64,000 nucleotides of DNA from Thermoflexus sp. (GTDB lineage: Bacteria > Chloroflexota > Anaerolineae > Aggregatilineales > Aggregatilineaceae), in the NCBI GenBank assembly GCA_020724465.1, contig DYGX01000014.1:1-64000 (forward strand), in the 5' to 3' direction. This document shows, piece by piece, positions 20,447 to 64,000 of the stretch. The notes beneath the pieces are model-generated. The model saw only the letters and a program-made list of their open reading frames with translations, searched no databases and had not been told where the DNA came from. A program made the position numbers and the translations under genes. The stretch's first letter is position 1, and each line of letters begins with the position of its first letter.

Positions 20447-20570
<124 letters not shown>

Positions 20571-60877: not shown

Positions 60878-61104
60878 GGCGTTGTTGCTTCCTCTCTATG
60901 TAGATAACCAGCGCAGCATCGAAGCGCGCCTCGCCGGGGCGGCGCAGTGGGTAAATCGCTTGCGATGTGTGTGAGTCCAGGCAGGGCACCGCGCCGGAAA
61001 CCGGTTCGCGTGGCGGCCTGCACCGCTGTTCATTATCCCGCGCTCTTCGGGCTGTCTGCCGCTAATTTGTACATATTCGCCAAACCGGTTTTTGTTCCAA
61101 CCGC
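60878..61104. other. Divergent region between argG and the ilv leader
   Basis: Nothing certain is seen on the argG side. An open frame of 45 residues (60896-61033, - strand) with scattered Arg codons ends just before the argG ribosome-binding site, but no terminator follows it. Confidence 0.4.
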
Positions 61105-61133
61105 TTGACACGGCGCCGGGCTTGGCATACAGT
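61105..61133 (+). promoter_or_regulatory. Strong sigma-70 promoter of the ilv leader
   Basis: A perfect TTGACA, a 17-base spacer, then TACAGT. Transcription would start near 61140, leaving a leader of about 490 bases before ilvD. Confidence 0.85.
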
Positions 61134-61201
61134 CTAGAGCAAGCTCGACACGTTCCGCGCGGCGCTGGCTGCTGCGGTTGGATGGGAAAGCGATTCTGAA
61201 C

Positions 61202-61294
61202 GTGGCATCTCGGCTGGTCGTCCTCCTTATTGTTGTTCTCCTCGTCATTCTTGGCGGGGTTTTCGGCGTTGGGAGGACCGAGGCAGCGGTGTAG
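61202..61294 (+). CDS. Branched-chain leader peptide 1 (30 residues)
   Basis: Codons 5-17 are thirteen consecutive Leu, Val or Ile codons, followed by G-G-V-F-G-V and a short tail. The bases GTCCTCC (61220-61226) inside those codons pair with GGAGGAC (61272-61278) in the tail. The latter overlaps GGGAGG (61271-61276), which can instead pair with CCTCCC of the terminator. This is the classic 1:2, 2:3, 3:4 attenuator geometry. Start is GTG 61202; an in-frame TTG at 61178 is an alternative. No ribosome-binding site is strong. Confidence 0.85.
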   Translation: MASRLVVLLIVVLLVILGGVFGVGRTEAAV

Positions 61295-61318
61295 CAGCCG
61301 GGTCAATCAGAGGAAAAC

Positions 61319-61350
61319 AAGGGCCTCCCAACAAGCGGGAGGCCCTTTTC
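61319..61350 (+). terminator. Attenuator terminator 1 of the ilv operon
   Basis: AAGGGCCTCCC and GGGAGGCCCTT pair perfectly across seven bases and end in TTTT. Confidence 0.92.
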
Positions 61351-61404
61351 GTTCCAGGGACGTCAGACGCGCCATAGAGCGCCGCATTGCAAGAGGCCGT
61401 TACG

Positions 61405-61533
61405 ATGAACATCGCCATGCCTGACCTTCTGGTTCCGCTTATCGTCATCATTATCAGCCTCCTTCTCGTTCTTGAGAAGGAGGGGCAACAGGTTGGAGTG
61501 GCGGTGGTCCCCATGCGGCGCCAGAGGCGATAA
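61405..61533 (+). CDS. Branched-chain leader peptide 2 (42 residues)
   Basis: A second leader frame with a run of Leu, Val, Pro and Ile codons at 8-17 and L-L-L-V-L at 19-23. AAGAGG lies eight bases before the ATG. Inside it CCTCCTTCTC (61458-61467) and GAGAAGGAGG (61474-61483) form a perfect hairpin. GGTTGGAG (61491-61498) is complementary to CTCCAACC in terminator 2 (61570-61577), giving an antiterminator. Ribosome stalling on the Ile/Val run should favour read-through into ilvD. Confidence 0.82.
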   Translation: MNIAMPDLLVPLIVIIISLLLVLEKEGQQVGVAVVPMRRQRR

Positions 61534-61562
61534 AGGCGACGGCAAGGACAGCAGAACACCAG

Positions 61563-61596
61563 CGAGCCGCTCCAACCTGGGCGGCTCGGTTGTTTT
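61563..61596 (+). terminator. Attenuator terminator 2 of the ilv operon
   Basis: CGAGCCGC and GCGGCTCG pair, followed by GTTGTTTT. It lies 36 bases before the ilvD start. Confidence 0.87.
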
Positions 61597-61631
61597 CGCG
61601 GCAGATGTAGATTGACCCGGAAGGACCTGGA

Positions 61632-63299
61632 ATGCGCTCCGATCGAATTAAGAAAGGGTTTGAACGCGCTCCTCACCGCAGTCTGCTCAAAGCGACCGGC
61701 GTGCGAGACGAGGATATGCGCAAGCCGTTCATTGCCATCGTCAATTCCTACGTGGACATCATTCCGGGGCACGTTCACCTGCAAGAGTTTGGGCAGATCG
61801 TCAAGCAGGCCGTGCGCGAGGCAGGCGGCGTGCCGTTCGAGTTCAACACGATCGGCGTCGATGACGGGATTGCGATGGGGCACATGGGGATGAACTACTC
61901 CCTGCCCAGCCGCGAGCTGATCGCCGATTCGGTCGAGACAATGATCATGGCGCACGCTTTTGACGGCATGATCTGCATCCCCAACTGCGACAAGATCGTG
62001 CCAGGGATGTTGATGGGCGCGATGCGCGTGGACATCCCCACCATCTTTGTCAGCGGCGGTCCGATGCCGGCCGGCAAAACGCCCGATGGGCGCACGGTCG
62101 ATCTGATCAGTGTGTTCGAAGGCGTCGGTGCCTACAAAGCGGGCAAGATCGACGAGACGGAGCTCAAGACCCTGGAAGACTATGGCTGTCCGTCGTGCGG
62201 GTCGTGCTCGGGTATGTTCACGGCGAATTCGATGAACTGCCTGATGGAAGCGCTCGGTCTGGCCCTGCCGTACAACGGAACCGCCCTGGCCCAGACCCCT
62301 GAGCGCATCGCCCTCGCGCAGCAAGCGGCGCGCCAGATCATGGTCTTGATCGACATGGACCTGACGGCGCGCCGAATTGTTAGTGCAGAAGCCATCGACG
62401 ACGCCTTCGCGCTGGATATGGCAATGGGCGGCAGCACCAACACCGTGTTGCACACGCTGGCCCTCGCCTACGAAGCGGGGATCGAGTACCCGCTGGAGCG
62501 CCTGAACGACGTCGCGGCGCGCGTGCCGCACATCTGCAAGGTCAGTCCTGCCTCGCACTGGCACATGGAAGATGTGCATCGCGCCGGGGGCGTCCCGGCC
62601 ATCCTGCACGAGATCGCGCGCAGCGGCAACACGTTGCATCTGGACCGCCCCACGGTGACCGGGCGAACCCTGGGCGAGAACATCGCCGACGCCGCCATTC
62701 GCGACTACGAGGTCATCCGCCCGGTCGAAAATCCCCACAGCCCGCATGGCGGGCTGGCCGTGCTGTTCGGCTCGCTGGCACCGGACGGCGCCGTGATCAA
62801 GATCGGCGCGGTTCCCGAGGCGCTGCGCCGTCACACTGGCCCGGCGCGCGTGTACGAGAGCGAAGAGGCGGCCTCGTACGGCATTCTGAACGGCGAGGTC
62901 CGGCCGGGCGAGGTGGTCGTGATCCGCTACGAGGGCCCGCGCGGCGGACCGGGGATGCAGGAGATGCTGGGGCCGACCGCGCAGCTTCAGGGCATGGGCC
63001 TGGGTGACTCGGTAGCGTTGGTCACCGACGGGCGCTTTTCCGGTGGCAGCCGCGGCGTGTCGATCGGGCACGTCAGCCCCGAAGCCGCCGCGCGCGGGCC
63101 GATCGCCGCCGTGCAGAACGGCGACCCGATTGCGATCGATCTGGATCGCCGGACGCTGGATCTGCTGGTCGACCCGGCTGAAGTTGAGCGGCGGCTGGCG
63201 GCGCTGCCCCCGTTTGAGGTGATGATCGAAAGTCGCTGGCTGCGGCGTTATGCCCGTCTGGTGAGCAGTGCGAGCACCGGCGCGGTTTTTCTGGACTGA
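61632..63299 (+). CDS. ilvD: Dihydroxy-acid dehydratase
   Basis: A 555-residue iron-sulfur dehydratase that makes the keto acids leading to valine, isoleucine and leucine. Cluster-ligand cysteines appear in [12 protein letters not shown] (near residue 115) and in [14 protein letters not shown] (near 186-200). The C-terminal G-R-F-S-G-G-S-R-G motif is also typical. AAGGA precedes ATG 61632. It is the first structural gene after the tandem attenuators and is followed by ilvE 38 bases later. Confidence 0.96.
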
Positions 63300-63337: not shown

Positions 63338-64000
63338 ATGGGGTTGAACGAACAGAAATCCGAATGGATGTGGCGCAACGGGGAATGGGTGCGCTGGGAA
63401 GACGCGACGGTTCACGTGACCGCGCACGCGCTGCACTATGGCTCAAGCGTTTTCGAAGGCATCCGCGCCTATGCCACGCCAGACGGGCCGGCGGTGTTCT
63501 GCCTGGATGCGCATGTGCGGCGTCTGTTCGACTCGTGCAAGATCGCCCGCATCCCGGTGCCCTATTCGCCGGCTGAGATCGCCAGCGCCATTGTGGAGAC
63601 GGTCGACCGCAACCGGCACACAAGCTGCTACATCCGCCCTATGGTCTTCCGGGGCAGCGAGGTGATCGGCCTGGACGGGCGGGCGTGCCCGACCGAAGTC
63701 GTCATCTTCACCATCGACTGGGGCCGCTACCTGGGCGCCGACGCGATCGAGCAGGGCATCGACGTGATGGTTAGCTCGTGGCGGCGCATGGCGCCCGACA
63801 CGCTCCCGGCGATGGCGAAGATCGGCGGGCAGTACATCGGCAGCCAGTTGATCACCATGGAAGCCAAAGAGAACGGCTTCCACGAAGGGATCGGGCTGGA
63901 CGTCAACGGCTACGTGGCCGAGGGTGCGGGCGAGAACATCTTCCTGGTGATGAACGATGTGCTCTACACCCCGCCGGTTGCCGCGTCGGTCCTGGCGGGC
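63338..64000 (+). CDS. ilvE: Branched-chain amino-acid aminotransferase (3' end beyond window)
   Basis: The first 221 residues of a fold-type IV PLP aminotransferase that performs the last step of Val, Ile and Leu synthesis. The PLP lysine is K161 in A-M-A-K-I-G-G-Q-Y. The N-terminal A-L-H-Y-G-S-S-V-F-E-G-I-R-A-Y motif and the Y-I-R-P-M-V-F-R-G segment are standard. GAAGGAG lies nine bases before the ATG. The frame is open to the last base, so the gene continues past the window. Confidence 0.94.
   Translation, partial: MGLNEQKSEWMWRNGEWVRWEDATVHVTAHALHYGSSVFEGIRAYATPDGPAVFCLDAHVRRLFDSCKIARIPVPYSPAEIASAIVETVDRNRHTSCYIRPMVFRGSEVIGLDGRACPTEVVIFTIDWGRYLGADAIEQGIDVMVSSWRRMAPDTLPAMAKIGGQYIGSQLITMEAKENGFHEGIGLDVNGYVAEGAGENIFLVMNDVLYTPPVAASVLAG

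Follow-up and report, generated by a model that had tools for sequence, protein, structure and literature searches.

How many attenuators stand in front of a branched-chain amino acid operon? Textbook examples have one module each: the E. coli ilvGMEDA, ilvB and leu leaders are single ribosome-mediated attenuators, and the best-documented cases of leader-peptide attenuation come from Proteobacteria and Actinobacteria. The locus studied here, from a 4.4 Mb genome of the Anaerolineae (Chloroflexota), raises the question of whether two such modules are arranged in series before a single pathway. The window, by which we mean the whole 64,000-nucleotide stretch analysed, lies at the beginning of a contig of 107 kb. 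The first structural gene, ilvD (61632-63299, plus strand), is followed by ilvE (63338-64000, plus strand), which runs beyond the window end, and the co-directional run continues with ilvB, ilvN, ilvC, leuA, leuC, leuD, cimA and leuB, then moaA; we take these gene names from the sequences and from general knowledge of the families. As ilvD to leuB form a single gene run, one leader lies ahead of the whole Leu/Val/Ile pathway. Upstream, argG and argH are on the opposite strand. At a separate site in the window (20449-20566, minus strand) there is a SAM riboswitch, scoring 89 bits.

An earlier note on this DNA had described two complete leader-peptide modules in series before the operon, and the leaders, terminators and pairings are indeed in place. 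Leader peptide 1, (V/M)ASRLVVLLIVVLLVILGGVFGVGRTEAAV, spans 61202-61294 on the plus strand, stop codon included. The mechanical ORF begins at TTG 61178, and alignment with the ATG of relatives (for example L008, MASRRLSLVL...) favours GTG 61202 as the probable start. The leader contains the 13 consecutive Leu/Val/Ile codons that had been counted previously (61214-61252), which form the predicted stalling zone. Strand A1, the protector (GTCCTCC, 61220-61226), pairs with strand B1, being exactly complementary to GGAGGAC at 61272-61278. A leader hairpin (CCTCGTC-ATTCTT-GGCGGGG, 61240-61259) has a 5′ arm made of Leu/Val codons; in the distant relatives L019 and L022-L024 this hairpin is re-formed from different sequence. 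Strand B1 (GTTGGGAGG, 61268-61276) is the 5′ strand of the antiterminator, and strand C1 (CCTCCCAAC, 61324-61332) provides both its 3′ strand and the 5′ arm and loop of the terminator. The exact complement of GGGAGG (61271-61276) is found in CCTCCC (61324-61329). Intrinsic terminator 1 (61319-61347, plus strand) has a T-rich tail to about 61351, and the RNA fold of the module is more stable than that of shuffled sequences (z -3.2).

Module 2 follows on the same strand. Its leader peptide, MNIAMPDLLVPLIVIIISLLLVLEKEGQQVGVAVVPMRRQRR, occupies 61405-61533 with the stop codon and probably starts at ATG 61405. Leader hairpin 2 (CCTCCTTCTC-GTTCTT-GAGAAGGAGG, 61458-61483) encodes LLLVLEKE; in the alignment 92% of cells are paired, and 4 of 10 pairs show change on both sides. 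The 3′ arm of this hairpin (61474-61483) carries a conserved AAGGAG, read as Lys-Glu codons, which is Shine-Dalgarno-like and internal to the leader. Strand B2 (AGGTTGGAGTGGC, 61490-61502) is the antiterminator 5′ strand, and strand C2 (GCCGCTCCAACCT, 61566-61578) forms the terminator 5′ arm and loop, with GGTTGGAG at 61491-61498 exactly complementary to CTCCAACC at 61570-61577. Intrinsic terminator 2 (61563-61588) has a T-rich tail to about 61596, and this fold too is more stable than shuffles (z -2.7). All three pairings quoted in the earlier note are therefore exact, and two extend beyond its figures: B1:C1 to 9 bp (61268-61276 with 61324-61332) and B2:C2 to 13 bp (61490-61502 with 61566-61578). 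The two leader hairpins were absent from that note.

Among short ORFs on both strands of the 64 kb (90 aa or fewer, with 10 or more Leu/Val/Ile residues in a stretch of 12), just leaders 1 and 2 were found, each with a terminator downstream. Dinucleotide shuffling of 61100-61631 did not yield even one such ORF in 1000 trials.

To place the arrangement in an evolutionary context, we compared regions upstream of ilvD genes whose products belong to the same IlvD type (at least 71% identity). The search for paired leader/terminator modules in relatives, which the earlier note had suggested, recovered a tandem leader before ilvD in 21 genomes from 17 genera and four families: 14 in the family of the window, the rest in families f3 and f6 and one f7 genome. 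A tandem also precedes ilvD at locus L060, and probably at L063. Two genomes of family f4 (L015, L017) have one module. Within the genus of the window itself, genome G002 (L141, G002:C113) keeps module 1 and lacks module 2, with ilvD 60 nt past terminator 1; module 2 may have been deleted naturally here, or its absence may stem from the assembly. This loss and the two single-module f4 genomes indicate that two modules are not indispensable. Further out in the Anaerolineales a single module before ilvD is the usual state, as in Ornatilinea apprima and Bellilinea caldifistulae, and no paired leader and terminator was seen at some 40 ilvD loci of Bacilli and others. In Ignavibacteria and related MAGs (L066, L093, L102, L109, also L064 and L087), ORFs upstream of ilvD end in Leu/Ile-rich stretches (..LLIISLLLVG) with no obvious terminator, and are perhaps another leader system.

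Both modules share the same order of elements, from Leu/Val/Ile codons to the 5′ arm of the leader hairpin, strand B and the terminator C:D. Strand B has a GTTGGG core, and the complementary CCCAAC core lies in the terminator 5′ arm and loop. In both modules and nearly all relatives an intrinsic terminator is present between the leader ORF and the first gene. When B and C strands were compared with partner-swapped pairs, native B:C pairing was stronger for both modules (0 of 20000 permutations, with phylogeny left in). B:C in module 2 shows two-sided, compensatory changes in 6 of 13 pairs, exemplified by GGTTTGGGGCGGT:GCCGTCCCAAACC in L007 and CCTGGGGCGGTTCT:AGAGCCGCCCCAGG in L010. B1:C1 covaries little because the pairing is so strongly conserved; covariation is present in terminator 1 and in the leader hairpins, while misaligned loops in alignment A3 distort the counts of paired positions for terminator 2. 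Mutually exclusive pairing of C, with B in the antiterminator or with D in the terminator, is found in both modules, and the evidence for it is strong in module 2.

Are the two modules on one transcript? The near-consensus promoter reported previously, TTGACA-17-TACAGT of the sigma-70 type, is present at 61105-61133 on the plus strand and is the sole promoter serving both modules. All 21 tandem loci have a counterpart of it upstream of leader 1, with 8-11 of 12 consensus matches. Alternative leaders with separate promoters are common among bacteria, and on that precedent the locus could be read as two separate units, each made of a promoter and one attenuator. We consider this very improbable: against the 8-11 matches before leader 1, the best promoter match in the inter-module stretch of the 21 loci is 0-7 of 12, the level of shuffled sequence. 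A promoter ahead of leader 1 and none between the modules, in all 21 loci, places both attenuators in series on one transcript. The locus accordingly has what defines a tandem attenuator, namely two leader ORFs on one transcript, each with an attenuator.

The codons of the leaders bear on what is sensed. Across 20 loci, leaders carry 38% Leu, 27% Val and 26% Ile in module 1, and 42% Leu, 23% Ile and 21% Val in module 2. Each is a short ORF with a run of codons for products of the pathway downstream, as expected for a leader-peptide attenuator. The pattern that the earlier note had named as evidence against attenuation, terminators kept and leader codons lost, does not apply, with Leu/Val/Ile content retained in 21/21 tandem loci. 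Of 507 codons in the runs, about 85% have T at position 2, position 1 is evenly C, G or A, and there are 2 Phe and no internal Met codons. T-second codons with a free first position and near-absent Phe and Met point to selection for Leu, Ile and Val, not mere hydrophobicity. This matters for a further reading, in which the hydrophobic ORFs encode small membrane proteins, or a T-box or ppGpp riboswitch, known to regulate ilv operons elsewhere, takes the place of leader peptides. Such a reading is extremely improbable: Phe and Met would not be expected to be so rare in a membrane segment, the SAM riboswitch at another site is the sole Rfam match in the window, and neither a T-box nor a ppGpp riboswitch covariance model matches there. 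In the leader region none of the Rfam leader families reaches its gathering threshold, the best sub-threshold match being Phe_leader (23.5 bits against a cut-off of 55). The leaders prefer CTT/CTC for Leu and ATT for Ile, where neighbouring genes use CTG (68%) and ATC (79%); this rare-codon preference could slow decoding, or could preserve a pyrimidine-rich run for pairing.

Tandem riboswitches may function as gates, and two leader peptides could in principle do the same if they sensed different amino acids. The tandem attenuators of Salmonella mgtCBR, which respond to different signals, provide a precedent (PMC3641672). Here the Leu/Val/Ile mix is identical in kind in both modules across 20 loci, and in the folding model described below the module 1 antiterminator stays on for almost every codon of the run, making a Boolean gate very improbable. 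The proposal that the pair divides labour to give AND-type control over more than one amino acid is thus not borne out: judged from the leader sequences, two different signals of the mgtCBR kind are not encoded. More probably, both modules gate in series on one shared signal, or on translation as such.

We next asked how the two modules are related to one another. When a covariance model is built from module 1 alone, its matches include the second modules of the tandem loci (E about 1e-3 to 1e-14) as well as single modules in Anaerolineales (to 5e-19). At E ≤ 0.001 the model matches 172 of 298 Anaerolineae genomes sampled. The 27 control genomes (25 Bacilli, 2 Ktedonobacteria) gave weak matches only, the best (3.6e-5) in a Ktedonobacteria genome. 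Strong matches away from ilvD lie before ilvE-ilvB-N-C or ilvB-N-C, and include a second tandem in genome G022; genome G157 has another tandem before ilvB. Two weak matches (E about 1e-4 to 1e-3) fall on a hisG leader and an uninformative site. On these matches, module 1 and module 2 are homologues of one another, as well as of the usually single Anaerolineae module. The second tandem copy in G022 (L135, G022:C333:19978-20316, minus strand) precedes leuB; G022 carries the tandem at ilvD as well, which gives the impression that the pair moves as a cassette. In a FastTree phylogeny most module 1 copies are set apart from most module 2 copies, which suggests, with moderate support, that the pair predates the families; deep nodes are poorly resolved, and the tree cannot date the duplication. 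We put the probability at about 85% that one promoter and two homologous ribosome-mediated attenuators in series precede this single ilv-leu operon.

For how such a leader would operate, we infer leader translation, termination, a stall signal and multiplicative output. A short Leu/Val/Ile-rich peptide would be translated in each module. When charged Leu-, Val- or Ile-tRNA is scarce, the ribosome would stall in the codon run, B would pair with C, the terminator C:D would be blocked and RNA polymerase would proceed. Brisk translation would instead mask B, allowing the terminator to stop transcription; in module 1 the masking would be due to a ribosome sitting at the stop codon adjoining B. As RNA polymerase must clear both terminators, the read-through fractions would multiply, which may reduce basal expression and make the operon respond more steeply to one and the same shortage.

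We modelled this switch by folding with a masked ribosome footprint. Folding full-length modules at equilibrium is uninformative, as the terminator wins every time; the modelled transcripts therefore stop just downstream of strand C. For module 1, the predicted antiterminator probability is 0.82-0.98 with the ribosomal A-site at 61214-61244, 0.11 once it has reached the stop codon and 0.00 without a ribosome, when A1:B1 forms instead. A ribosome at the stop codon abolishes B:C of module 1 in all relatives tested, while the state without a ribosome differs among them. The leader 1 stop codon lies -14 to +7 nt from B in nearly all relatives and at +15 in the genus of the window. In module 2, B:C is kept in every folding state but the one in which the ribosome covers 61486-61510, over B2. 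The stop codon of leader 2 comes about 28 nt after B2 in the window (12-48 nt past B in relatives), so a ribosome waiting there leaves B2 unmasked. The folding with masked leader segments that the earlier note had called for is consequently split: module 1 behaves in silico as a textbook switch, and module 2, in static folding, does not act as a simple copy of the E. coli switch. For module 2, either kinetics beyond static folding or a different default may apply.

The differing behaviour of the modules in these models raises the possibility that they do unlike jobs. Module 1 would report tRNA charging and be off if its leader is untranslated; module 2 would report translation or coupling and no particular amino acid, reading through by default and terminating only with a ribosome moving through B2. 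The predicted states fit, with module 1 off without a ribosome and on when one is stalled, and module 2 off solely with a ribosome over B2, as does the position of the stop codon: next to B for module 1 in nearly all relatives, but 12-48 nt beyond it for module 2. However, the folding behaviour of module 2 differs from relative to relative, equilibrium folding leaves out kinetics and RNA polymerase pausing, and the Leu/Ile/Val content of the leaders is as high in module 2 as in module 1. We regard this division as unlikely, though with a real chance of being correct. A broader version, also unlikely, is a two-stage filter in which module 1 opens on a branched-chain stall, module 2 is open unless translation crosses B2, and tandems formed on more than one occasion in the class. 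If that were true, the operon would be induced by amino-acid shortage and separately gated by translation and coupling.

Returning to two like attenuators in series, we looked at other operons of the lineage. A genome-wide histidine-codon pattern returned mostly coding noise, and hisG neighbourhoods were examined instead. In this genome and most of its family, a lone leader containing His codons (..HVHAHHH..), followed by one terminator, lies upstream of hisG, as at G000:C23:62922-63130 (L170; neighbourhoods L152-L168), with leader ..PHVHAHHHANRTPG... and terminator GACGCCTCTCGG-TCCG-CCGAGGGGCGTT. Aspartokinase genes of Anaerolineales have Thr/Met-rich leaders with a terminator (for example MFNILNSTKHGLGTMTMTTTSGEFREAFVLGQT, ending in a stop codon; L047:2423-2547, L052:206-330 and L046:1515-1631, all minus strand), those of L047 and L046 being immediately upstream of the aspartokinase gene. 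With His and Thr/Met leaders besides the branched-chain ones, leader-peptide attenuation seems general in the class Anaerolineae. Doubled attenuators occur only on branched-chain operons among the operons examined; given the single histidine attenuator in the same lineage, doubling is within that set specific to the branched-chain operon.

Several known systems resemble parts of this arrangement. The Corynebacterium ilvBNC uORF (ilvB-II motif) is a branched-chain uORF attenuator, described as a single element (PMC10272879). Like the E. coli attenuators, it has a Leu/Val/Ile-rich leader peptide, an antiterminator and an intrinsic terminator before branched-chain genes; unlike these one-module systems, the present locus has two homologous serial modules of another sequence family in another phylum. 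Salmonella mgtCBR, a Mg2+/virulence operon termed a singular example of tandem leader-ORF attenuators, senses ATP and proline and is without two intrinsic terminators (PMC3641672). Its leader mRNA, too, contains a pair of short ORFs that each govern an attenuator, whereas here there are two terminators, the same amino acids, a biosynthetic operon and mutually homologous modules. The tandem SAM and B12 riboswitches of B. clausii metE, as cited in PMC3641672, likewise place two regulators and two intrinsic terminators serially in one leader, but RNA aptamers there sense two different ligands, both metabolites. Conserved RNAs also precede ilv genes as the ilvB-OMG, Leptospira ilvB and Veillonella ilvD motifs, the first two proposed to be uORF attenuators (PMC8632094, PMC10272879). 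These are single elements in other taxa, and the passages on them in these two sources do not describe the Anaerolineae element. A search of the open-licence literature for attenuation in Chloroflexi or Anaerolineae returned no relevant paper, which is weak evidence of absence.

Leader-peptide attenuation as such is known; what appears new, against that literature, is a conserved serial pair for one pathway, in Chloroflexota. A distinct homologous attenuator module is present in over half of the sampled Anaerolineae and is doubled in one lineage, in 17 genera. One-module relatives, two-module relatives and a loss within the same genus together provide a clean natural test of the benefit of a second attenuator.
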